Assembly (NCBI RefSeq): GCF_000959525.1
Contig: NZ_CP009831.1
Location: 1,984,001-2,048,000 of the forward strand
Reading direction: 5' to 3'
DNA: 64,000 nucleotides
Origin: Burkholderia multivorans ATCC BAA-247
GTDB taxonomy: Bacteria > Pseudomonadota > Gammaproteobacteria > Burkholderiales > Burkholderiaceae
Below, piece by piece: positions 22,122 through 39,330 of the stretch. The translations under genes and the position numbers were made by a program. The notes below the pieces were generated by a model. It was not told the origin of the DNA. It was given only the letters and a program-made list of their open reading frames with translations, and searched no databases. Position 1 is the stretch's first letter. Each line of letters starts with the position of its first letter.

Positions 22122-24371
22122 CTACGAAACCGCCGACAAATCGAACGGTGTCTCGCGCAACCGTTTGCCGGCCAATCGGAACACCGCGTTCGCGATCGCG
22201 GGCGTAACGGCAGGACTCGACAGTTCGCCGACACCGCCCGGCTTCGCGCGGTCGCCCTGCACGATGTGAATGTCGGTGTCCGGCATGTCGTTCATGCGCA
22301 TCACGCGATACGTGTCGAAGTTCGACTGCTGCACGCGGCCGTTGCGGATGTCGATCCGGTCGGACGTCGCGTGGCCGAGCCCCCACATCAGCCCGCCGTA
22401 CAGCTGTTCCTCGACGCCGGCCGGCGACACCGCGATCCCGCAGTCGGCGACGCACGTGAGCTTGGCGACGCGCACCGCGCCGTCCGCATCGCGCGCGACA
22501 CGCGCCACCACCGCGACGTAGCTGTCGTAGGCCTGATTCGTCGCGACGCCGAGCGCGACGCCGTCCGGCAGCGGCTGCCCCCAGCCGGCGCGCGCCGCGG
22601 CCTCGCGCAGCACGGCCGCGTGCCGCGGGCGGCCTTGCATGTGCGCGAGCCGGAATTCGACCGGGTCGCGCGCGGCCGCGTGCGCGGCCTCGTCCATCAG
22701 CGACTCGACCGCGAATACGTTCGGGATATAGCTGACCGCGCGATACCAGCCGGTCGGCACGCCGGTCTCCAGACGAATCCAGCCGATGTCGCGATGCGGC
22801 GCCGCATACGCGAACTCCCATTTGGTGAGCGCTTCGGTCGTGCTGAAGTCCATCCGGTCCGCGCGCTCGAGATAGCCGGGCTCCCATTGCTGCGGCGATG
22901 CGGGCATTACGGCGCGCAGCCACAGCGACGCGAGGTTGCCGCGCGCGTCGAGCACCGCGCGTGCACGATGGCAGCTTGCCGCGTGATAGAACAGCGCGCG
23001 CATCTCGTCCTCACGGCTGTTCATCAGCTTCACCGGCTTGCCGGTCTTCACCGCGAGCCAGGTCGCCTCGAACAGCCAGTACTTCGATTCGCGCGCACCG
23101 AAGCTGCCGCCCGATACGCGTTCATGCAGCGTCACGCGGTGCGCGGGAATGCCGCCGATCACCTGAGCGGCTTCCATAGCAGTGGACGGCACCTGCAGCC
23201 CACCCCAGTATTCCATTCCGCCGTCGCGCGCCCATACGGTCACGTTGATCGGCTCGAGCGGATTCGCCGCCTTGTACGGCATCGCATAGGTCGCGTCGAC
23301 GGTGCGCGCGCCCGCGAGCGATGCATTGGCGGGATCGCCGTCGCGGATCGTCGGCACGACGCGCGCGGCCGGATCGTCGACCCACGCGGCCTGCCGCGCG
23401 GCCAGCGTGCTGCTGTCGAACGTCTCGAACAGGCTGTCCTCCCATTCGATCTTCAGCGCGGCCTGCGCGCGATGCGCGGACCAGTAGTCGTCGGCCAGCA
23501 CCGCGACGCCGGCCTGGTTGCCGCCGAGCACGTCGGGGCGCGGCGGAATCTGCAGCACGTCGCGCACGCCGGGCATCGCGAGCGCTGCCTTCGCGTCGAC
23601 GCTGCGCACGCGCGCGTCGATCACCGGCGCGCGCGTGACGACGGCGACCAGCATCCCCGGCAGCGATACGTCGATGCTGTACGGAAACGATCCGTCGGCC
23701 TTTTGCGCGGCGCCGCGCTTGCGACGCAGCTTGCCGATATAGCGGAATTGCGCCGGGTCCTTCAGCGCGACACGCTGCGGCGCCGGCAACCGTGCGGCAG
23801 CCGATGCAAGCGATCCGTACGTCGCGCGGTGTCCGCTCGCCGCATGCTGCACGGCGCCGTCGGCGGTCGTGCATGTCGACGCCAGCACGTTCCATTGCCG
23901 CGCAGCCGCTTCGACGAGCATCGCGCGCGCAGTCGCACCCGCCTCGCGCAGCCGGTCGTACTCCATCGCGACGCTCGTGCTGCCGCCGGTCGAGAACACC
24001 TTCCACAACGGATGGATGTAGTCGGCAAAGAACGGATCCTCGGGCGTGATCACCTCGACCCTGAACGGATCGACGTCCAATTCCTCCGCGACGAGTGCCG
24101 CGAGTGCGGTGCGCGTGCCGGTACCCGAATCGTGCTTGTGCACGACGAGCTTGATCGTGTCGTCAGGGAGCACGCGCACCCATGCGTTCGGCTCGAATTC
24201 GCCGGCGGCCGGATGCGGGTCGCCGCTCGCGCGTGGGGCGGCCGCCGTAGCATCGGCCAGCCGAAAACCGACGGCGACGCCGGCCGTGAGCAGCGCGGCG
24301 CTCCGCTTCAGAAAGCGGCGCCGCGGGGTGTCGTCGATGGGCGGCATCGGTGCGGTTCGATCGTGTCGCAT
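22122..24371 (-). CDS. Molybdopterin-binding subunit of a periplasmic xanthine-oxidase-family hydroxylase/aldehyde dehydrogenase
   Basis: 749 residues. Tat signal RRRFLKRSAALLTAG near the N-terminus implies export of the folded Mo enzyme. It resembles the IorB-type large subunit (isoquinoline 1-oxidoreductase beta): GSTSVAMEYDRLREAG, HERVSGGSFGARESKYW (MoCo region) and a C-terminal GGVGELSSPAVTPAIANAVF with the catalytic Glu region. The ATG is set by AAGGAGG 7 bases upstream, one base after the small-subunit stop. The substrate is an aldehyde or N-heterocycle; it cannot be named from sequence. Confidence 0.85.
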   Translation of the reverse strand: MRHDRTAPMPPIDDTPRRRFLKRSAALLTAGVAVGFRLADATAAAPRASGDPHPAAGEFEPNAWVRVLPDDTIKLVVHKHDSGTGTRTALAALVAEELDVDPFRVEVITPEDPFFADYIHPLWKVFSTGGSTSVAMEYDRLREAGATARAMLVEAAARQWNVLASTCTTADGAVQHAASGHRATYGSLASAAARLPAPQRVALKDPAQFRYIGKLRRKRGAAQKADGSFPYSIDVSLPGMLVAVVTRAPVIDARVRSVDAKAALAMPGVRDVLQIPPRPDVLGGNQAGVAVLADDYWSAHRAQAALKIEWEDSLFETFDSSTLAARQAAWVDDPAARVVPTIRDGDPANASLAGARTVDATYAMPYKAANPLEPINVTVWARDGGMEYWGGLQVPSTAMEAAQVIGGIPAHRVTLHERVSGGSFGARESKYWLFEATWLAVKTGKPVKLMNSREDEMRALFYHAASCHRARAVLDARGNLASLWLRAVMPASPQQWEPGYLERADRMDFSTTEALTKWEFAYAAPHRDIGWIRLETGVPTGWYRAVSYIPNVFAVESLMDEAAHAAARDPVEFRLAHMQGRPRHAAVLREAAARAGWGQPLPDGVALGVATNQAYDSYVAVVARVARDADGAVRVAKLTCVADCGIAVSPAGVEEQLYGGLMWGLGHATSDRIDIRNGRVQQSNFDTYRVMRMNDMPDTDIHIVQGDRAKPGGVGELSSPAVTPAIANAVFRLAGKRLRETPFDLSAVS

Positions 24372-24372
24372 C

Positions 24373-24867
24373 TCATGCCTCCTTGGCGTCGCCGGCCACC
24401 GCGTCGAGCGCGGGATCGCCCGACGCCGCGCGCTTGATCGCGCGATGAATGCGCGCATACGTGCCGCACCGGCACACATTGCCCGACATCGCGGACACGA
24501 TCGCCGCGTCGTCGACGGGCCGGCCGCCATTCAGCAGCGCGGCCGCCTGCATCAGCTGGCCCGGCTGGCAATAGCCGCATTGCGGCACGTCTTCGGCGAC
24601 CCATGCGAGCTGCAACGGATGCCGTCCGTCCGGCGACAATCCCTCGATCGTCGTCACTTTGCGGCCCTGCACCGCGACGGCCGGCATCACGCACGACCGC
24701 ACGGCCTGCCCGTCGACATGCACCGTGCATGCGCCGCACAAGCCCTTGCCGCAGCCGAACTTCGTACCGGTGAGCTTGAGCCGGTCACGCAGCACCCAGA
24801 GCAACGGCATATCGTCCGGTACCTGGTCGAGCGAATGGCGTGTATCGTTCACGACGATGTCGATCAT
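24373..24867 (-). CDS. (2Fe-2S)-binding subunit of the molybdenum hydroxylase
   Basis: 164 residues. Carries two [2Fe-2S] clusters that pass electrons from the Mo subunit: plant-type site [14 protein letters not shown] near residues 39-52 and the helical site QCGYCQPGQ plus NVCRCGTY in the C-terminal half. IorA/CoxS family size. No FAD subunit is adjacent, as in the IorAB group, which passes electrons to cytochrome c. Two-gene operon with the large subunit, divergent from a LysR gene 123 bases away. Confidence 0.9.
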
Positions 24868-24990
24868 GCGCGGTCTCCTGAGTCGGGTCGTGGGGCCGCG
24901 CATCGCCGTGCGCGGTATCGCATTATCGAAACGCGGCACGCGGGCGCGCCAGCGATCATTTCGTCGATTCCCTGTCAGTCGGACTAACAG

Positions 24991-25884
24991 ATGCTCAAGC
25001 GATACCCTTCGATCCAGTCGATGCAGGCATTTCTGCAGGCCGCGCGGGTCGGCAGCTTCTCCAGCGCCGCACGGCAGCTCGCGCTGACGCACAGCGCGAT
25101 CAGTCAGCAGATCCGCTCGCTCGAGGAATTCATCGGCCAGCCGCTGTTCGTGCGCACGGGCGGCCGCGTGAGCCTCACCGATGCGGGCACGCTGCTCGCC
25201 CACCAGTTGTCGGACGGCCTCGAGCAGATCGATCGCGCGTTATCGTCCGTGAAGGGCCGCGCGAGCGCGCCGTCGCTGCGGCTCGACGTCGATCCCGAAC
25301 TGATGCAGGGCTGGCTGCCGGCGCGCATGCCGGCACTGATGCGCGCGCTCGGCGGCACGACGCTGACGGTGCTGTCGGCGCCGCGCCACGATCGCGATGC
25401 GTTCGATCGCGTCGATGTCGCACTGCGCTACGGCTACGGCGAATGGGAAGGCGTCGACAGCGCGCTGGTCTGCCCGGACCGGCTGACCGCGATGGCCTCG
25501 CCGGCGCTGCTCGAACGCTACGGGTTGCGCGCGCCGCTCGCGCCGGCCAGCGTGCTGACGCTGCCGCTGCTCGGCTATACGAAACGCTCGTGGATTCCGT
25601 GGCTCGAAGCAGCCGGGCTCGCGCCGGTCGAACCCGACACGATCGCCGTGTTCGACAACGCGGCCGGGCTCGTCGCCGCGCTCGCCTCAGGGCTCGGCGC
25701 AGGCCTCGCACGCGGGCTGCTCGCCGCCGACGCTCGCCGCGACGGCCGCCTCGTCGAGCTGTGCACGATCGCGATTCCGACGCACTACAACCTCCATGCG
25801 ATCTGGCCGCGCGAGCGGCACGCGCGCGTGAAGCCGCTGCTCGACGCGATCGGCGCGCTGGTCGCGCAAACGCTCGCGCGTTGA
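24991..25884 (+). CDS. LysR-family regulator (GcvA-like), likely controls the divergent Mo hydroxylase
   Basis: 297 residues. N-terminal winged [58 protein letters not shown]. The C-terminal effector domain is of the GcvA type ([20 protein letters not shown]). It is transcribed away from the hydroxylase genes, the usual LysR arrangement, which is the basis for the proposed target. Ends convergently one base from the next LysR gene. Confidence 0.88.
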
Positions 25885-25885
25885 G

Positions 25886-26776
25886 TCACGCGCGGTATTC
25901 GGCCGCGACTTCGCGCACCGTATCGAGAAACGCGCCGAGCACGGCGGACGTGTCGTCCGCGCGGTAGCGCGCCTGCAGCGACACTTCGAGCTCGGGCGCG
26001 AGCAGCGGCACGAACGACACGCCGCCCGTCGAGATCTGTCGCGCCGACGCGGGCAGCAATGCGACGCCCAGCCCCTCGCGCACGAGCGACAGCAGCGTGT
26101 GCACCTCGACGACCTCATGCTCGATCCGCGGCGTGAAGCGCGCGTCCACACAACACTGTTGCAGGAAGCGCGCGAGCTGCGAATGGCGCAGCCCGAACGA
26201 CACGAAGCGCTCGTTCGCAAGCTCGCCGAGCGCGATCGCTTCGCGCGACGCGAGTCGATGATCGAGCGGCAGCGCGGCCACCGCCGTTTCGCGCACGACG
26301 ACCTCGCTGCGGATCGCCGGATCGTCCTGGAACAGCCGGAAGAAACAGACGTCGAGCCGCTTCTCCTTGAGCGCATCGATCTGCGCGGCCGGCGTCATCT
26401 CGTGCAGCGACCACTGCACGTGCGGATGCCGCTCGGCGAACACGCGCAGCGCGCGCGGAATCGGCGCGACCATCGCGGAGCTGATGATGCCGACCGCGAC
26501 GCGGCCTTTTTCGCCGCGCCCTGCGCAGCGCGTCAGGTCGATCGCGCGATCGAACTGCGCGACGATCAGCGGCACCTGCTCCTTCAGTGTTTTCCCTGCC
26601 TCGGTCAGCTCGACGCGATGCTGCGAGCGCACGAACAACGCGGTGCCGAGCTGTTCCTCGAGCAGCCGGATCTGCTGGCTCAGCGGCGGCTGCGAGATAT
26701 GGAGCCGCGCGGCCGCGCGCCCGAAATGCAGCTCGTCCGCAAGCACCGCAAAGTAACGCAACACACGCATGTCCAT
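25886..26776 (-). CDS. LysR-family regulator (CatR/BenM-like), divergent from the amidohydrolase-UbiD cluster
   Basis: 296 residues. HTH MRVLRYFAVLADELHFGRAA then ARLHISQPPLSQQIRLLEEQ, characteristic of the BenM/CatM group that senses aromatic ring-cleavage intermediates. Effector domain follows from residue 90. It is divergent from the gene at 27019 with a 242-base gap, so it probably controls that cluster. The inducer is unknown. Confidence 0.88.
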   Translation of the reverse strand: MDMRVLRYFAVLADELHFGRAAARLHISQPPLSQQIRLLEEQLGTALFVRSQHRVELTEAGKTLKEQVPLIVAQFDRAIDLTRCAGRGEKGRVAVGIISSAMVAPIPRALRVFAERHPHVQWSLHEMTPAAQIDALKEKRLDVCFFRLFQDDPAIRSEVVVRETAVAALPLDHRLASREAIALGELANERFVSFGLRHSQLARFLQQCCVDARFTPRIEHEVVEVHTLLSLVREGLGVALLPASARQISTGGVSFVPLLAPELEVSLQARYRADDTSAVLGAFLDTVREVAAEYRA

Positions 26777-27018
26777 ATCGGAAACGTATCAAGAGCGTCA
26801 GTAAAAAATATTGTACAGAGCGCATTTGGCTTGTGACACTCGGTCCCAAGCAGCAGTGCACGTCGCAGTGTGTCACTCGATGCCGGCGAGGGGAAGGCGC
26901 CAAAAAAGGACGCCTTGAAAAGGGCCGCGTGAATCCGACCGGAACGGTCGCTTCATCGACGTGCCTGCCCGCGACCCGGCAACCGGCCCTTCCGGTTCCT
27001 CTCAAGGAGATCGAGTAG
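26777..27018. promoter_or_regulatory. Divergent promoter region, LysR gene / amidohydrolase cluster
   Basis: An AT-rich stretch at 26800-26830 suits a promoter. A spaced inverted pair, GTGACAC at 26833-26839 and GTGTCAC at 26870-26876, could be regulator half-sites. A purine-rich AAGGAG lies 9 bases before the ATG at 27019. No site is proven. Confidence 0.35.
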
Positions 27019-27921
27019 ATGATCATCGACACAAGCTGTTATCCGACGAACCTCGTCGACCTCGCCTGGCGCCACGACGGCGAGCCGTTCACCGGCGAGC
27101 GCCTGATCGACACGATGAACGGCCCGTTCCTCATCAACGGCAAGCCGCGCCGCATCGACAAGGCGTTCATCCAGCCGCCGCAGGGCAACACGATCTACAC
27201 GTACACCGACGGCGAAAAGTCCGGCACCGAATCGATCGACGCGTACATGGCCTACACCGTCGAGATGGTGCGCAAGTATCCGGACCGCTTCATCGGCTGC
27301 TTCGTCTACAACCCGCGGTGCGGCGTCGAGAACGGCGTAAACGCGATCGGCCACTACGTGCGCAAGCTCGGCTTCAAGATGGTCCAGTTCCAGGCGAACA
27401 TGCACGCGTACCGGCCCGACCGCGCGCTCGACTGGCTGCGGCCCGCGCTCAGGAAATGCGCGGAGCTCGGCGTGCTCGTGAAGCTGCATACGGGCGACGG
27501 CCCGTACAGCATCCCGACCGAATGGGTGCCGATGATCAAGGAATTCCCGACCGTCAATTTCATCATGGCGCACTTCGGCGTGCAGACGGGCGGCGTCTAC
27601 TGCTTCGAGCCGTTCCAGCTCGCGATGGATTTGCCGAACGTGTACTGCGAATCCGGCTGGTGCCTGCAGTCGCGCATCGTCGAATTCGCGAAGGTGCTGC
27701 CGACGCACAAGATCCTGTTCGGCTCCGACACGCCGCCGAACGAACCGGGCATGTGGCTGCGCCTGCTCGAAGTGCTGTGCTTCGATCCGCCGCAAGGCAT
27801 GAATCTCGACGAGGACACGCTCGAGGACTACCTCGGCAACAACACCGCGCGGATGATCGGCCTCGAACCGACGCCCGCGCCGCGCACCGTCGACGAAGCG
27901 AAAGCGCTGCTGGCCGCCTGA
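27019..27921 (+). CDS. Amidohydrolase-superfamily protein lacking the HxH metal motif (paralog A)
   Basis: 300 residues, amidohydrolase-2 / ACMSD-like fold. Close paralog of the next gene over its entire length, but the N-terminal metal motif reads DTSCYP where the neighbour has DTHLHP, and a second conserved site reads MVQFQANMH where the neighbour has MVKLHANMH. Later ligands remain: His in KLHTGDGP, His in MAHFGVQ, Asp in FGSDTPPNEP. It may be a non-catalytic partner subunit or use another metal arrangement. First gene of the cluster, 34 bases before its paralog. Confidence 0.82.
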   Translation: MIIDTSCYPTNLVDLAWRHDGEPFTGERLIDTMNGPFLINGKPRRIDKAFIQPPQGNTIYTYTDGEKSGTESIDAYMAYTVEMVRKYPDRFIGCFVYNPRCGVENGVNAIGHYVRKLGFKMVQFQANMHAYRPDRALDWLRPALRKCAELGVLVKLHTGDGPYSIPTEWVPMIKEFPTVNFIMAHFGVQTGGVYCFEPFQLAMDLPNVYCESGWCLQSRIVEFAKVLPTHKILFGSDTPPNEPGMWLRLLEVLCFDPPQGMNLDEDTLEDYLGNNTARMIGLEPTPAPRTVDEAKALLAA

Positions 27922-27955
27922 CGCCGCATTCCCTGTCCCGATTCCGGAGCATTGC

Positions 27956-28861
27956 ATGATCATCGATACGCACCTGCACCCGACCAACCTCGTCGACGAA
28001 GCGTGGCGCCACACCGGCGAGCCGTTTACCGGCGAACGCCTGCTGAAGATGATGGACGGCCCGTACATCATCAACGGCAAGCCGCGCCGCATCGACATGG
28101 GCTTCATCCAGCCGCCGCCCGGCAACACCGGCTATCGCGACGGCAACCGCCGCGGCCGCGAAGGCATTCGCGACTACATGGCCTATATCGCCGAACTGAC
28201 GCAGAAGTACCCGGACCGCTTCATCGGCAACTTTACGTACAACCCGCGCTGGGGCCCGGAGAACGGTGCGGCGGAACTCGAGTTTCACATCAGGGAGTAC
28301 GGCTTCAAGATGGTGAAGCTGCACGCGAACATGCACGGCTATCGGCCCGATCGCGCACTCGACTGGCTGCGGCCCGCGATGAAGGTCTGCGCGAAGTACA
28401 ACACCGTCGTGCTGATTCACACCGGCGACGGCCCGTACACGATCCCGACGCAGTTCTACCCGATCATCCGCGAATTCCCGATGGTGAACTTCATCATCGG
28501 TCACTTCGGGATCCAGACGGGCGGCAACTATTCGTTCGAGGCGTTCTGGATGGCGATGGACACGCCGAACGTCTATTGCGAATCGGGCTGGTGCTACCAG
28601 TCGCGGATCGTCGAATTCGCGCGCCAGCTGCCGCGCCACAAGATCGTGTTCGGCACCGATTCGCCGCCGAACGAACCGGGCATGTGGCTGCGCGAGCTCG
28701 AGATGCTGTGCGGGCCGGCCCCGCAAGGCATGGATCTCGACGAAGACGGGCTCGAGGACTACATGGGCAACAACATCGCGCGGCTCGTCGGCATCGAGCC
28801 GACCAAACCGCCGAAGGACCTCGCCGAAGCCGAGAAGCGCCTGAAGGCGACGTACGTGTAA
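27956..28861 (+). CDS. Amidohydrolase-superfamily hydrolase or decarboxylase (paralog B, intact metal site)
   Basis: 301 residues, amidohydrolase-2 / ACMSD-like fold. The metal motif is complete: HxH in IDTHLHPTN, Lys-x-His in MVKLHANMH, His in LIHTGDGP, His in IGHFGIQ and Asp in FGTDSPPNEP. The superfamily includes C-C hydrolases and non-oxidative decarboxylases (ACMSD, gamma-resorcylate and isoorotate decarboxylases). The exact reaction is unknown. Probably acts with paralog A encoded immediately upstream. Confidence 0.85.
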   Translation: MIIDTHLHPTNLVDEAWRHTGEPFTGERLLKMMDGPYIINGKPRRIDMGFIQPPPGNTGYRDGNRRGREGIRDYMAYIAELTQKYPDRFIGNFTYNPRWGPENGAAELEFHIREYGFKMVKLHANMHGYRPDRALDWLRPAMKVCAKYNTVVLIHTGDGPYTIPTQFYPIIREFPMVNFIIGHFGIQTGGNYSFEAFWMAMDTPNVYCESGWCYQSRIVEFARQLPRHKIVFGTDSPPNEPGMWLRELEMLCGPAPQGMDLDEDGLEDYMGNNIARLVGIEPTKPPKDLAEAEKRLKATYV

Positions 28862-28869
28862 GCGCGCGC

Positions 28870-28908
28870 GGCCGGACCGCGCCGCGCACATGCGCGTGCG
28901 GTCCGGCC
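28870..28908 (+). terminator. Strong hairpin between amidohydrolase B and the UbiD gene
   Basis: Perfect 11-bp arms GGCCGGACCGC / GCGGTCCGGCC enclose a 17-base loop that can pair further (GCGCA/TGCGC). The sequence after it (ATTTCTGTT) is only weakly T-rich. It could be a leaky terminator or a processing barrier that lowers expression of the ubiD-ubiX-GTPase block. Confidence 0.6.
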
Positions 28909-28938
28909 ATTTCTGTTCCGTATCCGACGGAGTGCATC

Positions 28939-30333
28939 ATGGCGTCGAGCCTTTTCGCCGAGCAGCAGGATTTTCATCACTTCGCGAACGCCTATCGCGC
29001 GCATTACCCCGACGACATGCTCGCGATCGCGCAGCCGTTGTCGGCGGACCAGGACGTGACGGCCGTCGTCGCGTCGCTCGCGGCGCGCGGGCGGCACGAC
29101 ATGCTCGTCTGCGAGCGCGTCGACGGTCTCGCGGTGCCGCTCGTCACGAACGTATTTGCGTCGCGCACACGCATCGCACGGCTGTTCGGCGTCGACGCGC
29201 ACGATCTGTTCGATGCATGGCAGCGGCGCGCGAACGCGCCGATCGCGCCGGTCTTCGTATCGCACGGGCCCGTGCTCGATCACGTGGTCGAAGGCGACGC
29301 GGTCGATCTCGCGCAGTTGCCGATGATCCGCCACTTCGAAACCGATCGCGGGCCGTACGTGACGAACGCGGTGATCGTCGCGGAAGATCCCGAAACCGGC
29401 ATCGCGAACCTCAGCTATCACCGTTCGATGCGCGCTGCGCGCGACGCGCTCGCGACGAGCCTGCATTCGCGCGGCCATCTGTGGCGGATGCTGCACGCGG
29501 CGAAGTCGCGCGGCGATACGCTGAAGGTCGCGATGGTGATCGGCGCGCATCCGCTGTTCATGCTGGCCGCCGCCGCGCGCGTGCCGTTCGGCGTCGACGA
29601 GCGCGCGATCGCGGGCGGGCTGTTCGGCGCGCCGCTGCAGCTCGTGCGCACGCCGCGTTACGGCATCGGTGTGCCGGCCGCGGCGGAGTTCGTGCTCGAA
29701 GGCACGATCGATCCCGACGCACACGCGCAGGAAGGGCCGTTCGGCGAATTCACCGGCTATTCGTCGGACCGATCGACGAACAACGTGCTGCGCGTCGACA
29801 CGATGATGCGGCGCCGCGATGCGTGGCTCGTCGACGTGGTCGGCGGCCCCTATGCGGAGCACCTGACGCTCGCGCGGCTGCCGCGCGAAGCCGAGATGAG
29901 CGAGAAGCTGAAGGCGCGCTTTCCGGCCGTCACCGCGATCCACTATCCGAATTCGGGCACGCACTTTCACTGCTACGTCGCGCTGAAGCAGACGCGCGAC
30001 GGCGAAGCGCGGCAGATCATGCTCGCGCTGCTCGGTTGGGATCCGTATCTGAAGAACGTCGTCGCGGTCGACAGCGACGTCGACATCACCGACGACGCGC
30101 AGGTGCTGTGGGCCATCGCCACGCACTTCCAGCCGCATCGCGACCTGTTCGTCGTCGACGGTCTGCCGGGCAGCCCGCTCGATCCGTCGTCGTCGGCCGA
30201 CGGCACGACGTCGCGGATGGGCCTCGACGCGACGCGCGGTGCGCGCTTCGACGGTGTGCGCGCACGCGTCGGCGACGCCGCCATGAAGCGCGTGGCGCAG
30301 CTGGTCGCGCAACTCGACGGAGCCGCGCGATGA
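28939..30333 (+). CDS. UbiD-family prenylated-FMN decarboxylase
   Basis: 464 residues, normal for the family. UbiD enzymes decarboxylate or carboxylate aromatic, heteroaromatic or unsaturated acids using prFMN. Seen here: [15 protein letters not shown], the conserved Glu-rich active-site segment at about 265-280, and [20 protein letters not shown] in the C-terminal domain. CGGAG precedes the ATG. It overlaps a ubiX gene that supplies its cofactor. It is not likely to serve ubiquinone synthesis, given the catabolic context. Confidence 0.9.
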
Positions 30334-30932
30334 GCGCGCGCCGCCTCGTGGTCGGCATCAGCGGCGCGTCGGGCTTCGTGTACGGAATGCGGCTGCTCGC
30401 GCTGCTGCGCGCGCTCGACATCGAAACGCACGTGGTCGTATCGCGCGCGGCCGCGCTGACGATGGCGCACGAGACCGACTGCAAGCTCGCGGACGTCGCC
30501 GCGCTGGCCGGCGTGCTGTACCGCAGCGACGACATCGCGGCGCCGATCGCGAGCGGCTCGTTCCGCACGCTGGGCATGATCGTCGCGCCGTGCTCGATGA
30601 AGACGCTCGCGGAGATCGCGTGCGGTTTGACGTCCGGCTTGATCTCGCGCGCGGCCGACGTCGCGCTGAAGGAACGCCGCCGGCTCGTGCTGCTCGCGCG
30701 CGAGACGCCCTACACGCTCACGCACCTGCGCAACATGGCGGCCGTCACCGAAATGGGCGCGATCGTCGCGCCGCCCGTGCCCGCGTTCTACGCGCGCCCG
30801 GCATCGCTCGACCAGATGATCGATCACACGCTCGGCCGCGTGCTCGATCTGTTCGACATCGATTCCCGCACCGTCCATCGCTGGAAGGACAACGATTCGC
30901 AGCCCCATCGACTCAACGGAGACGCATCATGA
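30330..30932 (+). CDS. ubiX: Flavin prenyltransferase UbiX
   Basis: 200 residues. Joins a dimethylallyl group to FMN to make prFMN for UbiD enzymes. Motifs: [15 protein letters not shown] at the N-terminus (FMN/phosphate loop), [17 protein letters not shown] near residue 90 and [20 protein letters not shown] near residue 120. The ATG overlaps the decarboxylase stop as ATGA, and its own stop overlaps the next ATG, so three genes are translationally coupled. Probably a dedicated copy for this pathway. Confidence 0.93.
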
Positions 30933-32065
30933 CGCATATCCACACCACGCACAGCGACGTCGAAAAGATCCCGGTCACCGTGCTCACCGGCTTTCTCGGC
31001 GCGGGGAAGACCACGCTGCTCAACTACATCCTGCGCGAAAAGCACGGCCGCAAGATCGCGGTGATCGAGAACGAGTTCGGCGAGATCGGCATCGACAGCG
31101 GCCTCGTGCTGGAATCGACCGAGGAAATCTACGAGATGACGAACGGCTGCGTGTGCTGCGTCGGCGCCGTGCGCGAGGATCTGGTGCGCATCGTGCGGAT
31201 GCTGGTCGCGCGGCCCGACCGGCTCGATCACATCATCGTCGAGACGAGCGGCCTCGCCGATCCGTATCCGGTCGCGCAGACGTTCTTTCTCGACGATCCG
31301 ATCGCGAAGGAGGTCGCGCTCGATGCGGTCGTCACGATGGTCGATGCGAAACACATTCGCGCGCATCTCGACGATCTCGTGCTCGACGGCCGCGACAACC
31401 AGGCGGTCGACCAGATCGTCTGCGCGGATCGCATCGTGATCAACAAGGTCGATCTCGTCGACGCGGCCGACGTCGAATCGCTGAGCGCGCGGCTGCGCGA
31501 ACTGAACGCGACGGCCGAGATCGTCACGTCGAGCTACGCGCAGGTCGATCTCGATCGCATTCTCGGCGTCGGCGCGAACGAATTCGCGCAGATTCTCGTC
31601 GAGAGCGACGGGCTGCACGCCGACACGGACGCGCATGCCGACGGACATGCCGAGGAACACGCGGCGCACGACGCGCACGACGGCCACGATACGCACGCGC
31701 ATCGCGACCACCCGAGCCACGACCGCCACGACGATCACGACGACCACGAACACGACGCGAGCGTGTCGTCGGTCGGGATCGAAGTCGACGCCGACGTCGA
31801 TCTCGACGCGCTCGAAGCGTGGCTCGCGGAGCTGCGCGACGCCGACACCGCGAACCTGTTCCGGATGAAAGGGATTCTCGCGGTGCACGGCCGCGCGCAG
31901 CGCTACGTGCTGCAGGGCGTACACGGCGTGATCGAGCTGCGCGCCGCGCAGGCGTGGGGCACCGAGCCGCGTGCGTCGCGCATCGTCTTCATCGGCCGCG
32001 ATCTCGATCGCGCCGCGCTGACCGACCGTTTCCATGCCTGTCTCGCCGCGCCGGTCGCGGCCTGA
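30929..32065 (+). CDS. COG0523 (CobW/P47K) G3E GTPase, His-rich candidate metallochaperone
   Basis: 378 residues. P-loop GFLGAGKTT at about 21-29, the metal-binding CxCC in NGCVCCVG at about 74-77, NKVD specificity motif, and a C-terminal CobW_C domain. Between the two domains, at about residues 224-277, is a His/Asp-rich loop (repeated [24 protein letters not shown]) likely to bind Zn or another metal. The gene start overlaps the ubiX stop. By context it may deliver metal to the amidohydrolases of the cluster. Confidence 0.88.
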
Positions 32066-32125
32066 CGGGGCGCCGGGCGCGCGCATGCCGCGCGCGCCGG
32101 ATCACGAACATCAGGAGACACGCCC

Positions 32126-33499
32126 ATGCACTCTGCCTCACATCCCGTCGACCGCATACTGCCGCGCCGTCAGATGCTGACGCTCGGCCTGCAGCACATG
32201 CTCGTCGCGTATATCGGCGCGATCGCCGTGCCGCTGATCGTCGCATCCGCACTGAAGATGTCGCCCGCCGATACGACCGTGCTGATCAGCACCGCGCTGT
32301 TCTGCTCGGGGATCTCGACGATCCTGCAGACGGTCGGCATCTGGAAGCTCGGCGTGCGCCTGCCGATCCTGCAGGGCGTCGCATTCAGCAGCGTCGGCCC
32401 CGTGATCGCGATCGGCCTCACGCCGGGCGTCGGCTTCGCGGGCGTGTGCGGCGCAGTGATCGGCGCCGGCATCGTCACGACGCTCGCCGCGCCGCTGATC
32501 GGCCGGCTGCGTCGGCTGTTCCCGCCGGTCGTCACCGGCTGCATCGTGACCGTGATCGGCCTGCAACTGTTTCCGGTCGCCTATCAGTGGGCGGGCGGCG
32601 GCGACGCGGCGAAGCTGCAGTTCGGCGAGCTGTCGTTTCTCGCGGTCGCGCTCGTCGTCGCGGTCTCGATCCTCGCGATCAACCGCTTTGCGAACGCGTT
32701 CCTGCGCAACCTGTCGGTGCTGATCGGGCTCGTCGCCGGCAGCCTGCTCGCCTATGCGCTCGGGATGGGCAATTTCACGAACGTCGCCGCGGCGCCGTGG
32801 TTTACCGTGCCGATTCCGTTCCACTTCGGCGCGCCGGTGTTCGCGATCGTGCCGGTGCTCACGATGGTCGTCGTGATGATCGTGCAGATGGTCGAGTCGA
32901 TGGGGCTGTTCGTCGCGATCGGCGACATCGTCGAAAAGCACGTCAGCGAGGACGACGTCGTGCGCGGGTTGCGCGCAAACGGCGTGGCAAGCGCGATCGC
33001 CGGCACCTTCGCCGCGTTTCCGTTCATCGCGTTCATGGAGAACGTCGGCCTCGTGATCCTGACCGGCGTGCGCAGCCGCTGGATCGTCGCGGTCAGCGGC
33101 GTGCTGATGTGTGTGGTCGCGCTGGTGCCGAAAATCGGCGCGGTCGTCGCCTCGACACCATCCGCCGCGCTCGGCGGCGCCGGCATCGCGATGTTCGGCG
33201 TGGTCGTCGCGGCCGGCGTGCAAACGCTCGCGAAGGTCGACTTCGAAAACAACCGCTACAACGTGCTGATCGTCGGCTTCACGATCGCGACTGCGCTGAT
33301 CCCCGTGATGGCGCCGAAAGTGTTCGCGCACATGCCGGACTGGACGCAGCCGTTCCTGCACAGCGGCGTCGTCATCGCGTGCATCGTGTCGGTCGTGCTG
33401 AACGCGCTGCTGAACGGCGTGCAGGCGGCCGACCCCGCACCGGCGCACGCCGCCGCCGACGCGGCGCACGGCGGCCCGATGGCGCGCGAATGCGACTGA
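32126..33499 (+). CDS. NCS2-family (xanthine/uracil) permease
   Basis: 457 residues with 12-14 membrane segments. NCS2 signatures are LGLQHMLVAYIGAIAVPLIV near the N-terminus, ILQGVAFSSVGPVIAIG near residue 85, and the substrate-site region MVESMGLFVAIGDIVE. Proton- or sodium-coupled uptake of a nucleobase-like compound is expected, which hints that the cluster degrades an N-heterocycle. It follows the GTPase by 60 bases with GGAGA before the ATG. Confidence 0.9.
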   Translation: MHSASHPVDRILPRRQMLTLGLQHMLVAYIGAIAVPLIVASALKMSPADTTVLISTALFCSGISTILQTVGIWKLGVRLPILQGVAFSSVGPVIAIGLTPGVGFAGVCGAVIGAGIVTTLAAPLIGRLRRLFPPVVTGCIVTVIGLQLFPVAYQWAGGGDAAKLQFGELSFLAVALVVAVSILAINRFANAFLRNLSVLIGLVAGSLLAYALGMGNFTNVAAAPWFTVPIPFHFGAPVFAIVPVLTMVVVMIVQMVESMGLFVAIGDIVEKHVSEDDVVRGLRANGVASAIAGTFAAFPFIAFMENVGLVILTGVRSRWIVAVSGVLMCVVALVPKIGAVVASTPSAALGGAGIAMFGVVVAAGVQTLAKVDFENNRYNVLIVGFTIATALIPVMAPKVFAHMPDWTQPFLHSGVVIACIVSVVLNALLNGVQAADPAPAHAAADAAHGGPMARECD

Positions 33500-33587
33500 C
33501 CATGCGACTGAATTGCAGCGCGCTGCGCGCGGGCGCAGGCTCGCGTGCGGCGTGCGACTGCCCCTATCTTTACGAGGAAACCGAATC

Positions 33588-34970
33588 GTGAGTCTTCCGT
33601 CTGCTTCCCTGCTGATTCGCCGCCCGCTCGCGATCATGAGCGGCCGCACGGGCGCCGCCGCGCGGCTCACCCGCGCCGACCTGCGCGTCCGCGACGGCCG
33701 GATCGAAGCGATCGCGCCCGATCTCGCGCCGCAGCCCGGCGAGCGTGTGATCGACGCGCGCGACTGCGTCGTCTATCCGGGCTGGGTCAACACGCATCAC
33801 CATCTGTTCCAGAACCTGCTGAAAGCGGTGCCGGCCGGCATCAACGCCGATCTGCAGGCATGGCTCGCGGCGGTGCCCTATCCGCGCGTCGCGCGCTTCA
33901 CGCCGACGCTCGCGCGCATCGCCGCCCGGCTCGGCTTCGCCGAGCTGCTGCTGTCGGGCGTCACGACCTGCGCCGATCATCACTACCTGTATCACGCGGG
34001 CGGCACCACCGAGACCGGCGACCTGCTGTTCGACGAAGCGGCCGGCTTCGGCATGCGCTTCGTGCTGTGCCGCGGCGGTGCGCTGCAGGCGGCGGGCGAT
34101 CATCCGGGATTTGCGGGCACCGCACTGCAGCCCGAGACGCTCGACCGGATGCTCGCGGACATCGAGCGGCTGAAGGCGCGCTATCACGATGCGGGCGATG
34201 CATCGATGCGCCGCGTCGTCGTCGCGCCGACGACGCCGACCTTCTCGCTGCCGCCCGACCTGCTGCCCGAAGTCGCGCGTGCGGCGCGCGGGATGGGACT
34301 GCGGCTGCACTCGCATCTGTCGGAGACGACGCGCTACGTCGATTTCTGCCGCGAGCGCTACGGGCAGCTGCCGGTCGAGTTCGTCGCCGAGCGCGAATGG
34401 CTCGGGCCCGACGTCTGGTTCGCGCATCTGGTCCATCTCGAGCCGACCGAGATCGCACTGCTCGCGGATACGGGCACCGGCTGCGCGCACTGCCCCGTCA
34501 GCAATGCGCGGCTCGGTAGCGGCATCGCGCCCGCGCCGCGGATGGCGGCCGCCGGCGTGCCGATGTCGCTGGGCGTCGACGGCGTCGCGTCGAACGAATC
34601 GGGCAGCATGACGCACGAAGCGAACTTCGCGTGGCTCGTGCATCGTGCGGCGCACGGCGCGTCGGCGACGACCGTCGAACAGGTATTGCACTGGGGCACG
34701 CAGGGCGGCGCACGCGTGCTCGGGCTCGACGCGGTCGGCACGCTCGACGTCGGACAGGCCGCGGATCTCGTGCTGTACGACGTCAGCGGGCCGCGCTTCG
34801 CCGGCTTTCACGACCCGGCCGTCGCGCCGGTCACGGCCGGCGAGCCGGCGCCGGTCAAGTACAGCATCGTGAACGGGCGCGTCGTCGTCGACGACGGCGA
34901 GATTCCGGGCCTCGATCTGCACGCCCTTCGCCGCGATGCGATCGATGCGGTGCGGCAACTGATCGATTGA
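33588..34970 (+). CDS. TRZ/ATZ-type amidohydrolase, 8-oxoguanine deaminase-like
   Basis: 460 residues. Metal-dependent deaminase or dechlorinase of the cytosine-deaminase branch. Features: NTHHHLFQNLLKAVPAGINA at about 66-85 (HxH and the loop seen in 8-oxoguanine deaminase), LHSHLSETTRYVDFCRERYG, WFAHLVHLEPTEI and GVDGVASNESGSM. GTG start with GAGGAAA about 8 bases upstream. It probably removes an amino group from a heterocyclic ring imported by the neighbouring permease. The true substrate is unknown. Confidence 0.85.
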   Translation: MSLPSASLLIRRPLAIMSGRTGAAARLTRADLRVRDGRIEAIAPDLAPQPGERVIDARDCVVYPGWVNTHHHLFQNLLKAVPAGINADLQAWLAAVPYPRVARFTPTLARIAARLGFAELLLSGVTTCADHHYLYHAGGTTETGDLLFDEAAGFGMRFVLCRGGALQAAGDHPGFAGTALQPETLDRMLADIERLKARYHDAGDASMRRVVVAPTTPTFSLPPDLLPEVARAARGMGLRLHSHLSETTRYVDFCRERYGQLPVEFVAEREWLGPDVWFAHLVHLEPTEIALLADTGTGCAHCPVSNARLGSGIAPAPRMAAAGVPMSLGVDGVASNESGSMTHEANFAWLVHRAAHGASATTVEQVLHWGTQGGARVLGLDAVGTLDVGQAADLVLYDVSGPRFAGFHDPAVAPVTAGEPAPVKYSIVNGRVVVDDGEIPGLDLHALRRDAIDAVRQLID

Positions 34971-35258
34971 CCGTCGATCGCCGGTACGCGCAGTTCGGGA
35001 TCGTCCGCGTCGCGTAACGGCAACTCGGGCTGCGCGAGAACGCGCCATGCGCGGCGATGCGCGACCGACGCATCGCCCACGCCCTCCATCACACCCTTCG
35101 CCCGCCCCGCTTCGCAAACGACCTGCCCACCCGCGCCTCTTGGTGCCGCACCCGCTCGCGAGTATGCTTGCAGTTCAAACGAATTCCGGCACAGGGCCAC
35201 GCAACGGCGCTCACGTGCTGGCCGGCCAACCGCCTCTTCCGTCTATTACCACGCGTTC

Positions 35259-36500
35259 ATGGATTTCGACGTCATCGTTCTCGGCGCGGGCATCGTCGGC
35301 GTGTCCGTCGCGCTGCATCTGCAGGACCGTGGCCGCAAGGTCGCATTGGTCGATCGTTCGGCCCCCGGCGAAGGGACGAGCTTCGGCAACGCGGGCCTGA
35401 TCGAGCGCTCGTCGGTCGAACCGTATCCGTTCCCGCGCAGCCCGTTCACGCTGATGCGCTATGCGCTGAACCGATCGACCGACCTGTACTGGCACAGTGC
35501 ATCGCTGCCCGCCTTCGCGCCGTGGCTCGCGCGCTTCTGGTGGGAGTCGGCGCCGCAGCGTCACGCAGCTGCCGCACGCGACATGCTGCCGCTGATCGAG
35601 CGCTGCATCGTCGAACACGACGCGCTGATCGCCCGCTCCGGCGCGGGCGAGCTCGTGCGCGCGAGCGGCTGGATGGAAGCGTTCCGCACGCCGGCCGCAT
35701 TCGAGCGCGGCGCGGCCGAGGCGCAGCTCACCGCGCGCCGCCACGGGCTCGGCGTCACGCCGCTCGACGCGGCGGCACTGCTCGCGCAGGAGCCGAGCCT
35801 CGCGCCGGGCTTCTGCGGTGCGCTGCACTGGCGCGACCCGAAAAGCGTCGTCGATCCGTCCGCTTTGGTCAAAGCGTATGCGCGGCTGTTCGAGCAAGGC
35901 GGCGGCACGCTGCTGTCGGGCGACGCCGCAAGCCTCTCCGCCCGCTCGCCGGGCTGGGCGGTCGCGACCGAGCACGGCACGGTGGCCGCACCGGCCGTCG
36001 TCGTCGCGCTCGGCCCGTGGTCCGACACGGTGTTCGCGAAGTTCGGCTACCGCATTCCGCTGCGCGAGAAGCGCGGCTATCACATGCACTACGCGCCGTC
36101 CGCGCGCGGCGTACCGTCGGCGCCGATCGTCGATCGCGAATACGGCTACGTGATCGCGCCGATGCGGCGCGGGCTGCGGCTGACGACCGGCGTCGAGATC
36201 GCCCGCCGCCGCGTGCCGCCGACCGGCGTGCAGATCGAACGCGCGGAGCGCATCGCGCGGCCGGTGTTCGGCTTCGGCGAACGGCTCGATCCGCAGCCGT
36301 GGCTCGGCTTTCGGCCCTGCACGCCCGACATGCGGCCCGTGATCGGCCCGGCGCCGGCGCATCGCGGCATGTGGTTCGCATTCGGCCACAACCACCACGG
36401 GCTGACGCTTGGCCCCGTCACGGGCCGGCTGCTCGCGGAAATGATGACGGGCGACACGCCGTTCACCGATCCGGCGCCGTATCGCGCCGATCGCTTCTGA
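35259..36500 (+). CDS. FAD-dependent amino acid oxidoreductase (DadA-like)
   Basis: 413 residues. DAO-fold flavoenzyme: N-terminal FAD motif VLGAGIVGVSVALHLQDRG, GTSFGNAGLIERSS typical of the DadA group, and C-terminal GHNHHGLTLGPVTGRLLAE. It would oxidise a D-amino acid or secondary amine to an oxo acid and ammonia. It follows the deaminase by 288 bases, a gap with no gene I can recognise, so it may belong to the same catabolic unit or be independent. Ends convergently with the GntR gene. Confidence 0.85.
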   Translation: MDFDVIVLGAGIVGVSVALHLQDRGRKVALVDRSAPGEGTSFGNAGLIERSSVEPYPFPRSPFTLMRYALNRSTDLYWHSASLPAFAPWLARFWWESAPQRHAAAARDMLPLIERCIVEHDALIARSGAGELVRASGWMEAFRTPAAFERGAAEAQLTARRHGLGVTPLDAAALLAQEPSLAPGFCGALHWRDPKSVVDPSALVKAYARLFEQGGGTLLSGDAASLSARSPGWAVATEHGTVAAPAVVVALGPWSDTVFAKFGYRIPLREKRGYHMHYAPSARGVPSAPIVDREYGYVIAPMRRGLRLTTGVEIARRRVPPTGVQIERAERIARPVFGFGERLDPQPWLGFRPCTPDMRPVIGPAPAHRGMWFAFGHNHHGLTLGPVTGRLLAEMMTGDTPFTDPAPYRADRF

Positions 36501-36526
36501 CGCGGCGCACGCACGCGCACCGCGCG

Positions 36527-37288
36527 TCAGTCGAGCGCGCGCCCGAAGATCCGGATCACCTCGTCCAGATGCTCGGCCATCGCGCGGCGCGCGGCCTCGG
36601 GGTCGCGCGCGCGGATCGCGTCGAGGATCGCGCGATGTTCGAGTTCCGACCGATGCGGCATGTCGTGCGGCATGTACAGCGACTGCAATCGCTGAAACAT
36701 CGGATCGTATTTATGCGCGAGCAGCTGCTTGACCATCAGCGCGTAGGCTGCGTTGTCGCTCGCCTCGGCGATGCGGATATGAAACAGCCGGTCGCCCGGA
36801 TGCGTGACCGAGCCGCTGCGATTGTCCGCCTGATTGCGCTCGAACGCGGCGCCGATCGCGTCGATCTGCGCGTCCGAGGCATGCTTCGCGGCGAGCGACG
36901 CGGCTTCGGGCTCGATCAGACGGCGCGCCTGCAGCAGCGCGAACGGCGGGATTTCGGTATCGAGATCGAGCGCAATCCCCAGTTCGGGATCGATCTCGAC
37001 GACCGCAAGCGGCGCGGCCTTCGCGGCGGCGGCAGGCGCGGGTGCCGTCGCGGCCTCCGGATGGCGCACCTTCACGCCGTCGCCGACACGCACGCTGACG
37101 CGCCCACCCACTTCGAGCGCGATCAGCGCCTCGCGCACCGACGTGCGCGACACGCCGAACTGCTCGGCCAGCTCGCGCTCCGGCGGCAGATAGCTGCCCG
37201 GCGGAAAATCGCCGGACTCGATCATCGCGGTGAGCCGGTCGGCGATCTGCTGGTAAAGGCGGCGGTTCTGAATCGGCTGGATGGACAT
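36527..37288 (-). CDS. FadR-subfamily GntR regulator, likely L-fucose operon repressor
   Basis: 253 residues. N-terminal wHTH (LYQQIADRLTAMIESGDFPP, LPPERELAEQFGVSRTSVRE) joined by an Ala/Pro-rich linker to a C-terminal FCD ligand domain (ALLQARRLIEPEAASLAAKH; HIRIAEASDNAAYALMVKQL). It is the last gene of the fucose run, 68 bases after the lactonase gene. A palindrome at 45778-45792 upstream of the operon is its likely operator. The ligand is probably fucose or a fuconate-pathway intermediate. Confidence 0.85.
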   Translation of the reverse strand: MSIQPIQNRRLYQQIADRLTAMIESGDFPPGSYLPPERELAEQFGVSRTSVREALIALEVGGRVSVRVGDGVKVRHPEAATAPAPAAAAKAAPLAVVEIDPELGIALDLDTEIPPFALLQARRLIEPEAASLAAKHASDAQIDAIGAAFERNQADNRSGSVTHPGDRLFHIRIAEASDNAAYALMVKQLLAHKYDPMFQRLQSLYMPHDMPHRSELEHRAILDAIRARDPEAARRAMAEHLDEVIRIFGRALD

Positions 37289-37356
37289 ACGTCGATGCGG
37301 AAAATCGGTTGCGTGGCGAACGGGCCGGCGAAGCGGGCGAATCGTGCGCGCGTATT

Positions 37357-38247
37357 TTATAGGCGCGCGCCGGACGGTTCCGGCAGCGCGTAGCAGCGCG
37401 CGGCCGTCCCGCCCCACAGCGCGCTGCGCTCGGCCGCCGACAGCCGCGACTCGGCCCATCGCTCGACGAGCGACGCCACTTCGTCGTACGACGCGGCCAG
37501 CAGGCACACGGGCCAGTCCGATCCGAACATCAGCCGCTGCGGGCCGAGCGCGTCGAGCGCCGCATCGAGACACTGCTCGATGTGCCGGATGTCCGACGCG
37601 CGCAGTCCGCGCCGCCAGTCGGCCTCGGTCACGAGGCCCGACAGCTTGCACACGACGTGCGGCAGCGCGGCCAGTTCGCGCAACGCGGCACGCCAGCGCG
37701 CGAGCGCCGTATCGTCGCGGTCGAATTCGGCGAGTGCCGGCTTGCCCGCGTGGTCGAGCACGAGCCAGTGTGCGTCGTGCCGCGCGCAGAACGCCTGCAC
37801 GTCCGGCAGCTGGCGTTCGAACACGAGTACGTCGTACACGTAGCCGTTCGCCTGCAGCCACGCGACGCCGCGCGTGAAATCGGCATCGTCGACGAACGCG
37901 CGCACGTCGGCTTCGTCCTGCAGCTGATGGCGAAACCCGCGCAACTTCGTGCCACGCCACTCGGCGACGCGCTCGGCCAGTTGCGGCGCGCGCAAGTCCT
38001 CCCAGCCGACCACCGCCGCGATACGCGCCTCGTCGCGCGCGAGGTCGAGCAGGAACGCGGTTTCGTCGCGGCCCGCGCGCGCCTGCACGGCGATCGACGC
38101 GCCGAGCGCCTGCGCATGCATCAGCGGGTGCAGCGCGTCCGGCAGATAGTCGCGCGCGAGCACGCCCATCCCGGCACCGATCCACGGATAGTCGGCGGCC
38201 CGATAGCGCCAGAAGTGCTGATGGGAATCGATACGCAATGCGCCCAT
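37357..38247 (-). CDS. L-fucono-lactonase (amidohydrolase-2 family)
   Basis: 296 residues. Hydrolyses L-fucono-lactone to L-fuconate, step 2 of the non-phosphorylating fucose pathway. HxH in IDSHQHFWRYRAADYPWIG at the N-terminus, WLVLDHAGKP near residue 165 and FGSDWPVCLLAASY near residue 245 mark the family. GAGGA precedes the ATG. The assignment to fucose rests on the adjacent fucose dehydrogenase, fuconate dehydratase and hydrolase genes. Confidence 0.85.
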   Translation of the reverse strand: MGALRIDSHQHFWRYRAADYPWIGAGMGVLARDYLPDALHPLMHAQALGASIAVQARAGRDETAFLLDLARDEARIAAVVGWEDLRAPQLAERVAEWRGTKLRGFRHQLQDEADVRAFVDDADFTRGVAWLQANGYVYDVLVFERQLPDVQAFCARHDAHWLVLDHAGKPALAEFDRDDTALARWRAALRELAALPHVVCKLSGLVTEADWRRGLRASDIRHIEQCLDAALDALGPQRLMFGSDWPVCLLAASYDEVASLVERWAESRLSAAERSALWGGTAARCYALPEPSGARL

Positions 38248-38320
38248 GATGTCCTCGTATGCCGTCGTTCGGCGCGACCGCACGCGTGCGCGACCGCGCG
38301 TGCGACGTCGCCCGCAACGT

Positions 38321-39262: not shown

Positions 39263-39330
39263 TTCGCGTCTCCTTGGTTATATCCGCTGGAATGCCGGCC
39301 CGGCCGGCGGTGATGCGCAGCCTGCGTGCG

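Follow-up and report, generated by a model that had tools for sequence, protein, structure and literature searches.

A gene cluster of Burkholderia multivorans ATCC BAA-247, lying on contig NZ_CP009831.1 (assembly GCF_000959525.1) in the 64,000-nucleotide stretch analyzed here (positions 1,984,001 to 2,048,000; hereafter the window, in whose coordinates features are given), is probably a catabolic operon for pteridines which, as its gene content suggests, would funnel the pterin ring into ordinary purine breakdown. More tentatively, and with somewhat less than even confidence, we propose that two paired amidohydrolases encoded in this cluster, AH1 and AH2, form an obligate heteromer of an HxH-less protein and a zinc amidohydrolase that would act as the ring-contracting cycloisomerase EC 5.5.1.3, that a UbiD enzyme would then decarboxylate the purine, and that the locus would thereby link pteridine and purine catabolism in proteobacteria. 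The cluster itself is a real, patchily distributed and co-conserved catabolic unit.

The genes of the window were judged against curated Pfam and NCBIfam cut-offs. The main operon (27019-34970, + strand) begins with AH1 (27019-27921; Amidohydro_2, PF04909, 114.9 bits against a cut-off of 26.4), a proposed partner subunit, and AH2 (27956-28861; PF04909, 158.2 bits), the proposed ring-contracting enzyme. These are followed by UbiD (28939-30333; three UbiD domains; TIGR00148, 294 bits, cut-off 244.9), a decarboxylase dependent on prenylated flavin mononucleotide (prFMN) and a candidate xanthine-8-carboxylate decarboxylase; by UbiX (30330-30932; Flavoprotein; TIGR00421, 237 bits, cut-off 108.9), the flavin prenyltransferase that would make prFMN for UbiD; by a CobW/COG0523 GTPase (30929-32065; cobW 191 bits, CobW_C 89 bits), proposed to be a zinc chaperone for the metallo-amidohydrolases; by an NCS2 permease of the PbuX type (32126-33499; Xan_ur_permease; TIGR03173, 467.3 bits, cut-off 414.2), the putative pterin importer; and by an Amidohydro_1 aminohydrolase (33591-34970; NF009059, 804 bits, cut-off 543), a proposed isoxanthopterin/leucopterin deaminase. 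The spacings between these genes (34, 77, -4, -4, 60, and 91 nucleotides) appear operon-like, and 288 nucleotides separate the deaminase gene from that of a DadA-like oxidase (discussed later). Divergent from the main operon is LysR regulator 2 (25886-26776, - strand, assigned by Pfam). The cluster should extend farther left, over 22122-25884, to a divergent IorBA-type molybdenum hydroxylase and its regulator: LysR regulator 1 (24991-25884, + strand; LysR_substrate 78 bits, HTH_1 74.5 bits) is divergent from an IorA-type 2Fe-2S subunit (24373-24867, - strand, recognized from its open reading frame and translation), and the IorB-type large subunit of the same hydroxylase (22122-24371, - strand), named by our reading rather than as a scan result, carries the twin-arginine motif RRRFLK. 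Every gene listed in an earlier note on this DNA is full-length, in the order and on the strands it gave, and above its curated Pfam cut-off; that list had missed the divergent hydroxylase (22122-24867), and the regulator that it called BenM-like is not a BenM by the curated cut-off (NF040709, 139.3 bits for LysR regulator 2, cut-off 600). No terminator-like site was seen on the + strand of 24300-36600, in a weak scan that gave fewer sites than in shuffled sequence, and an Rfam scan (gathering thresholds) and a tRNA scan of the window found nothing.

Co-conservation was examined with an AH2 scan of genome contigs, which confirmed 214 relatives; the locus counts rest on the best 80 of these 214, with gene presence scored by tblastn within the DNA fetched around each locus. 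All 80 loci have AH1, AH2, and UbiD side by side in this order, accompanied by UbiX in 79, the COG0523 gene in 78, and an NCS2 permease in 77, a result that favors the cluster described in the earlier note, which had named lack of co-conservation as refuting it. A molybdenum hydroxylase is present in 65 loci (48 of the IorB type and 17 of the xanthine dehydrogenase [XDH] type); matches to the IorA 2Fe-2S subunit likewise number 65, with at least 55% identity in 48, the others being iron-sulfur subunits of XDH-type enzymes. LysR regulator 1 is matched in 45 loci (44 at 35% identity or above) and LysR regulator 2 in 76 (59 at 35% or above). A deaminase of either of two types occurs in 58 loci: 52 belong to the family of the window protein, and six (L062, L083, L084, L088, L089, and L090, all alphaproteobacterial) to another type that is 65-67% identical to the rhizobial/Ponticoccus one. 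A genome-wide deaminase search covered 24 genomes, namely 23 genomes from among the 28 loci whose fetched DNA shows no window-type deaminase, and the genome of L057, a locus that does have it; 22 of the 24 gave a match at E 1e-90 and 20 a match of at least 67% identity, and among the four below 67%, G754, G755, and G756 carry the other deaminase type in their loci (L062, L084, and L083). In three of the four Cupriavidus regions fetched, the deaminase gene is situated just past the flank and follows an NCS2 gene that is 1.3-4.6 kb away from the COG0523 gene; the fourth deaminase gene is on a 15-kb contig that has none of the other genes.

Genera that carry the cluster include Burkholderia, Paraburkholderia, Caballeronia, Ralstonia, Cupriavidus, and Pseudomonas, as well as Marinobacterium, Janthinobacterium, Paracoccus, and Ochrobactrum/Brucella; the carriers are scattered soil, plant-associated, and clinical bacteria. 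AH2 orthologs were found in four of 300 genomes of the order and four of 398 genomes of the phylum, and the latter sample held 18 further genomes with an AH2 match, all at 32% identity or less. Within the genus, UbiD occurs in 11 of 65 genomes (10 at 90% identity or above, one at 66%), and a search with 2paj as query (E 1e-100) found the deaminase in exactly those 10, approximately 4.6 kb from UbiD. A plasmid collection yielded 182 places of AH2-like sequence in 91 records, with two places each in 50 records listed. In Sinorhizobium meliloti 2011, AH2 is located on pSymB at 151234-152136.

While AH1-AH2-UbiD is constant, the molybdenum hydroxylase and the deaminase are swapped for non-orthologous, distantly related families, which suggests that the central pathway is fixed and its entry steps can be exchanged; such replacement is expected if both enzymes are real upstream steps. 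The NCBIfam matches of IorB are solely to molybdenum subunits of the XDH/aldehyde-oxidoreductase type, all 12 below cut-off, and its closest solved chain is 8gy3_C (215 bits); against the classical xanthine dehydrogenase model TIGR02965 it reached 73.3 bits, short of the cut-off of 849.5. A lax RRxFL-like pattern for twin-arginine translocation (Tat) was present in 48 of the 48 IorB loci examined. In Cupriavidus, Janthinobacterium, one Paracoccus, and rhizobia, the hydroxylase is instead an XDH-type enzyme with its own FAD and iron-sulfur subunits, and the same is true of both genomes of family f3 (G002 and G175, discussed later). XdhC, which sulfurates the molybdenum center, is encoded alongside the cluster in Ensifer, Shinella, and three further loci (L085, L086, and L091). 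On Sinorhizobium, Ensifer, and Ponticoccus plasmids, the deaminase is replaced by an amidohydrolase of about 431 amino acids similar to cytosine deaminase and AtzC, with every NCBIfam score under its cut-off; on a Paracoccus plasmid, matches to this replacement fall in two pieces within a stretch that has no listed gene. A class II aldolase gene stands between the replacement deaminase and the LysR gene in Ensifer (L139:4363-5151; PRK06486, 455 bits, cut-off 269) and Shinella (L141:4334-5134), and might serve in pterin side-chain cleavage. Genes of a BMP-type ABC transporter, a possible second uptake route, lie beside the cluster in Janthinobacterium (L093:2389-7165), Ensifer (L139:1-2794), and Shinella (L141:1-2767).

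The two amidohydrolases that the earlier note had reported are indeed present, and are more precisely described as always-paired paralogs, the first of which lacks the HxH motif. The metal site expected of PF04909 amidohydrolases consists of HxH, two further histidines, and an aspartate; AH2 carries the full set (H6, H8, H155, H183, and D235, each kept in 81 of 81 sequences). AH1 has S6-C7-Y8 where HxH is expected, in 81 of 81 sequences, and keeps H157, H185, and D237 in all 81. This absence of HxH suggests that AH1 and AH2 are an obligate pair, one subunit of which has degenerated, and AH1 may be a non-catalytic or altered partner subunit. The two proteins of one locus are 62-70% identical (n = 81), and the two are reciprocally monophyletic in a midpoint-rooted tree. 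Both evolve slowly: across 79 loci, mean pairwise identity is 0.91 for AH2 and 0.85 for AH1, as against 0.73 for UbiD and 0.68 for UbiX. AH1 and AH2 form an isolated, always-paired subfamily; in the 398 genomes of the phylum (E 1e-8), no match falls between 65% and 32% identity. In the records examined from Sinorhizobium, Ensifer, Shinella, Paracoccus, and Ponticoccus, the pair is annotated just as "amidohydrolase family protein". Outside Burkholderia, the AH1 of the window is 0.90-0.95 identical to that of Cupriavidus and a few other loci and 0.81-0.84 to most from Paraburkholderia/Caballeronia, whereas its AH2 shows the reverse (0.94-0.97 to most from Paraburkholderia/Caballeronia and 0.90-0.93 to Cupriavidus); these opposite affinities, a mosaic ancestry across 27019-28861, suggest recombination inside the pair.

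The UbiD and UbiX scores and the four-nucleotide overlap of their genes place the two in a prFMN-dependent decarboxylase system. The closest solved chains to UbiD are 6h6v (230 bits), which we take to be HmfF, and 7p9q (171 bits), which we take to be the indole-3-carboxylate decarboxylase AnInD, and its EGPFGE stretch is invariant in 81 sequences. For both of these nearest solved relatives, the substrate is a carboxylate on a five-membered heteroaromatic ring, as is the proposed xanthine-8-carboxylate; we know of no UbiD that decarboxylates a purine. A vanillate-type VdcBCD system was considered and rejected, the VdcC score of 245.5 bits lying below the cut-off of 650. The COG0523 protein, in which a His-rich stretch was seen by eye, is a member of an unnamed subgroup; it scored below the cut-offs of ZigA (NF038288, 180.5 bits, cut-off 600), a label that was rejected, and of CobW (TIGR02475, 207.5 bits, cut-off 332.1).

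The relationships of the deaminase were resolved further. Its best solved relative is 2paj (464 bits, 53% identity), ahead of 3hpa (321 bits, 43%) and 7ww2 (298 bits, 41%); 2paj is the isoxanthopterin deaminase that Hall et al. reported in 2010 from the Sargasso Sea. A tree of 17 sequences, with the 8-oxoguanine group (3hpa, 7ww2, and L134) as its root, places the 2paj type as the sister clade of the window type (split support 0.933), and 25 positions are fixed in the 14 sequences of these two groups and fixed differently in 3hpa and 7ww2 (L134 left out). The Janthinobacterium deaminase at the side of the cluster branches with 2paj and L135 (support 0.997). L135, from a Cupriavidus genome, is the nearest relative of 2paj that we found (69% identity), and has next to it an XDH that shares 92% identity with the XDH of the L076 cluster; a search of the genus for a closer 2paj ortholog returned the cluster deaminase only. 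The window deaminase belongs with 2PAJ and not with 8-oxoguanine deaminase, a label that was tried and rejected (NF006055, 440.9 bits, cut-off 532). PMC5270733 credits Hall et al. with the finding that amidohydrolases from the Sargasso Sea deaminate isoxanthopterin and pterin-6-carboxylate.

The genomic surroundings point to purine breakdown as the destination of the product. In two genera of one other family, f3 (G002 and G175), the core genes follow a ureide (urate/allantoin) operon. The G002 island includes an NCS2 gene, a PuuE allantoinase (501 bits, cut-off 425), UraD (184 bits, cut-off 96), an allantoate amidohydrolase (531 bits, cut-off 479), and UraH (79.5 bits, under the cut-off of 87.5), together with a PuuD-like gene that is 41% identical to a Paracoccus one, itself named by eye and without an NCBIfam match. 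The G175 island has counterparts 76, 73, 76, and 71% identical to the G002 PuuE, UraD, AllC, and UraH, respectively, and adds glyoxylate carboligase (Gcl; 1174 bits, cut-off 711) and hydroxypyruvate isomerase (Hyi; 397 bits, cut-off 353). UraD was present in all of the 27 carrier genomes searched, which had been selected for spread, versus 74 of 300 genomes of the order; all four cluster carriers within that 300-genome sample have it, as do four of 14 named control genomes. The window's own genome (6.32 Mb, three contigs) encodes both xdhB (C3:903135; TIGR02965, 1344 bits, cut-off 849.5) and UraD. Taken together, the ureide island, the UraD of the carriers, and the host's own xdhB and UraD make it likely that the product enters purine breakdown. 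In a Paracoccus stretch (L134:8084-18220), true xanthine dehydrogenase genes occur together with an NCS2 gene, the PuuD-like gene, UraH, and a deaminase of the 8-oxoguanine type; no match to AH1 or AH2 was found in the DNA fetched there.

We infer the substrate, the step order, and the activities of AH1/AH2, UbiD, the hydroxylase, and the COG0523 protein, as follows. The molybdenum hydroxylase, a Tat-exported IorAB in the window and an XDH-type enzyme elsewhere, would add the missing ring oxygen, converting, for example, xanthopterin or isoxanthopterin to leucopterin; the NCS2 permease would import the pterin; and the 2PAJ-type deaminase would take off the 2-amino group, leaving 2,4,6,7-tetrahydroxypteridine. 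AH2, with its partner AH1 and with zinc loaded by the COG0523 protein, would then hydrolyze the oxamide (6,7-dioxo) side of the pyrazine ring to an oxalylamino-aminouracil, whose reclosure with loss of water would give xanthine-8-carboxylate, an imidazole carboxylate isomeric with tetrahydroxypteridine. Such hydrolysis and reclosure would suit a zinc amidohydrolase. UbiD, with prFMN from UbiX, would decarboxylate xanthine-8-carboxylate to xanthine, after which xanthine dehydrogenase and the urate/allantoin pathway, both native to the cell, would finish the process. McNutt, working in the 1960s with Alcaligenes faecalis, is said to have described a route from isoxanthopterin through 7-hydroxylumazine, tetrahydroxypteridine, and xanthine-8-carboxylate to xanthine. 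The tetrahydroxypteridine cycloisomerase is EC 5.5.1.3, and we know of no gene for it or for a xanthine-8-carboxylate decarboxylase. Tetrahydroxypteridine and xanthine-8-carboxylate appear in a metabolomics table as alternative labels of one mass (PMC5941619), and xanthine oxidase is described as converting lumazine to violapterin, so that molybdenum hydroxylases do act on the pteridine ring system (PMC9966888). The earlier note had proposed uptake of a carboxylated, nucleobase-like compound, its deamination, and a prFMN-dependent decarboxylation under a LysR regulator. The last three elements are supported, as are uptake of a nucleobase-like substrate by an NCS2 permease and co-conservation of the genes as a unit; as for the carboxylated character of that substrate, a pteridine is likelier, with the carboxylate probably made within the pathway by ring contraction.

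Several observations weigh against this proposal. A plain pterin would need two hydroxylations, but the cluster has one hydroxylase, and no molybdenum hydroxylase was matched in the fetched DNA of 15 of the 80 loci. The best solved match of AH2 is LigW, at 26-30 bits; with nothing characterized close to AH1 or AH2, the pair may act as a decarboxylase or a hydratase. The 53% identity of the deaminase to 2paj leaves room for a different substrate, and one of the 24 genomes searched, G751, has no window-type deaminase at 67% identity or above (only a 43% copy) and none of the other type in its locus. G002 and G175 share synteny and belong to one family, so that the ureide context is effectively one event; a search of the 80 loci for the purine genes of the islands yielded nothing beyond an AllC-like match of 34-35% in two loci from Pseudomonas. 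Finally, carriers are mostly large genomes, and the UraD contrast is therefore confounded by size and lineage.

Pterin breakdown might instead begin on the folate side, which we consider unlikely: pterin-6-carboxylate would be taken up and deaminated to lumazine-6-carboxylate, UbiD would remove the 6-carboxylate, the molybdenum enzyme would hydroxylate the product, and AH1/AH2 would open the ring hydrolytically, bypassing xanthine-8-carboxylate. This route would supply directly the aromatic carboxylate that UbiD needs. An M20-family hydrolase, moreover, opens both f3 islands (L012:1095-2321; TIGR01910, 223 bits, cut-off 218; 81% identical in L146), and carboxypeptidase G belongs to the M20 superfamily; however, the nearest solved relatives of the f3 protein are deacylases of the DapE/ArgE type, with no carboxypeptidase G among its matches at 1e-15, and we rejected that identity for it. 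Nor was this hydrolase found in the 80 loci at 1e-30, and no folate-cleaving gene was recognized in the window cluster. In favor of the folate-side route, the Sargasso deaminases take pterin-6-carboxylate as well as isoxanthopterin (PMC5270733), and lumazine-6-carboxylate is listed among candidate products of folate breakdown (PMC9513972); the ureide context, however, calls for a purine product.

It is quite improbable that the substrate is some other N-heterocyclic carboxylate (a pyrimidine, pyrazine, pyridine, or purine-8-carboxylate), with AH1/AH2 as decarboxylases or hydrolases like ACMSD and LigW. The solved relatives of AH2, few and weak as they are, do comprise 5-carboxyvanillate decarboxylases, a predicted amidohydrolase (3cjp), and 4-oxalomesaconate hydratase, and the NCS2 and deaminase families are broad, the alphaproteobacterial deaminase resembling cytosine deaminase and AtzC. 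Yet the window deaminase groups with 2paj, the ureide context again points elsewhere, and AH2 as a decarboxylase would require the cluster to have two separate decarboxylases. Salvage of damaged purines, with an 8-oxoguanine deaminase in a cluster handling oxidized purines, is very hard to credit: the deaminase superfamily is shared and the Paracoccus enzyme L134, whose gene has PuuD-like, UraH, and XDH genes beside it, belongs to the 8-oxoguanine type (60-61% identical to 7ww2 and 3hpa), but the window deaminase falls below the cut-off of the corresponding model and, with 13 others, differs from 3hpa and 7ww2 at the 25 positions noted above, and 8-oxoguanine deamination yields urate directly, with no need of UbiD or AH1/AH2.

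At the right-hand edge of the main operon, the DadA-like oxidase (35259-36500; Pfam DAO) was rejected as a cluster member, being matched in just two of the 80 loci (three by a cruder count), in line with the earlier note's suspicion that this last gene is separate. In B. arboris (L028), the DadA gene is followed by an FCD/GntR-type regulator, as it is in the window, so that it may belong with the genes at 36527-40368, by eye a sugar-lactonase and ABC-transporter set. A gene resembling arylmalonate decarboxylase (PF17645) is present in 29 of the 80 loci, and directly follows the deaminase gene in four Burkholderia loci; the 288-nucleotide gap of the window (34971-35258) has no match to it.

Pterins are widespread, as folate, biopterin, molybdopterin, and insect (wing) pigments, and to our knowledge few genes are known for breakage of the pterin ring by bacteria. 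If our proposal is correct, it would provide sequences for a cycloisomerase to which no gene is known to be assigned and for a purine-8-carboxylate decarboxylase, and would give a role to an always-paired gene set that now has only a family-level annotation. It would mean that bacteria convert pterins to xanthine as food, and a 60-year-old pathway would become testable. In work published in 2022 on a Variovorax that degrades folate, products were identified as far as deaminopteroic acid; the authors infer further catabolism, call the origin of candidate later products elusive, and report a pterin deaminase of 399 amino acids (PMC9513972).

Comparison with known systems shows both likeness and difference. 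The 2PAJ isoxanthopterin/pterin-6-carboxylate deaminase is the best solved match of the cluster deaminase, but at 53% identity the two are not orthologous, and no earlier link of a 2PAJ-type deaminase to AH1/AH2/UbiD genes turned up in the open-licence literature. With HmfF and the indole-3-carboxylate decarboxylases the cluster has in common the UbiD family and a companion UbiX, whereas its own UbiD reaches about 230 and 171 bits against HmfF and AnInD and would act on a purine-8-carboxylate. AH2 has the HxH, His, His, and Asp set expected of the ACMSD/LigW type (PF04909), although its LigW match is weak; unlike those enzymes, AH1 and AH2 stand apart as a paired subfamily in which one member is without HxH. 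The earlier note knew of no described pathway with this gene set, which agrees with our having found no description of the gene cluster in the open-licence literature, but the chemistry resembles the route reportedly described in the 1960s. Every step of the reported McNutt pathway (deamination, hydroxylation, ring contraction, decarboxylation, and xanthine oxidation) has a fitting gene, and the cluster offers candidate genes for the cycloisomerase and the decarboxylase, to which none are known to be assigned.

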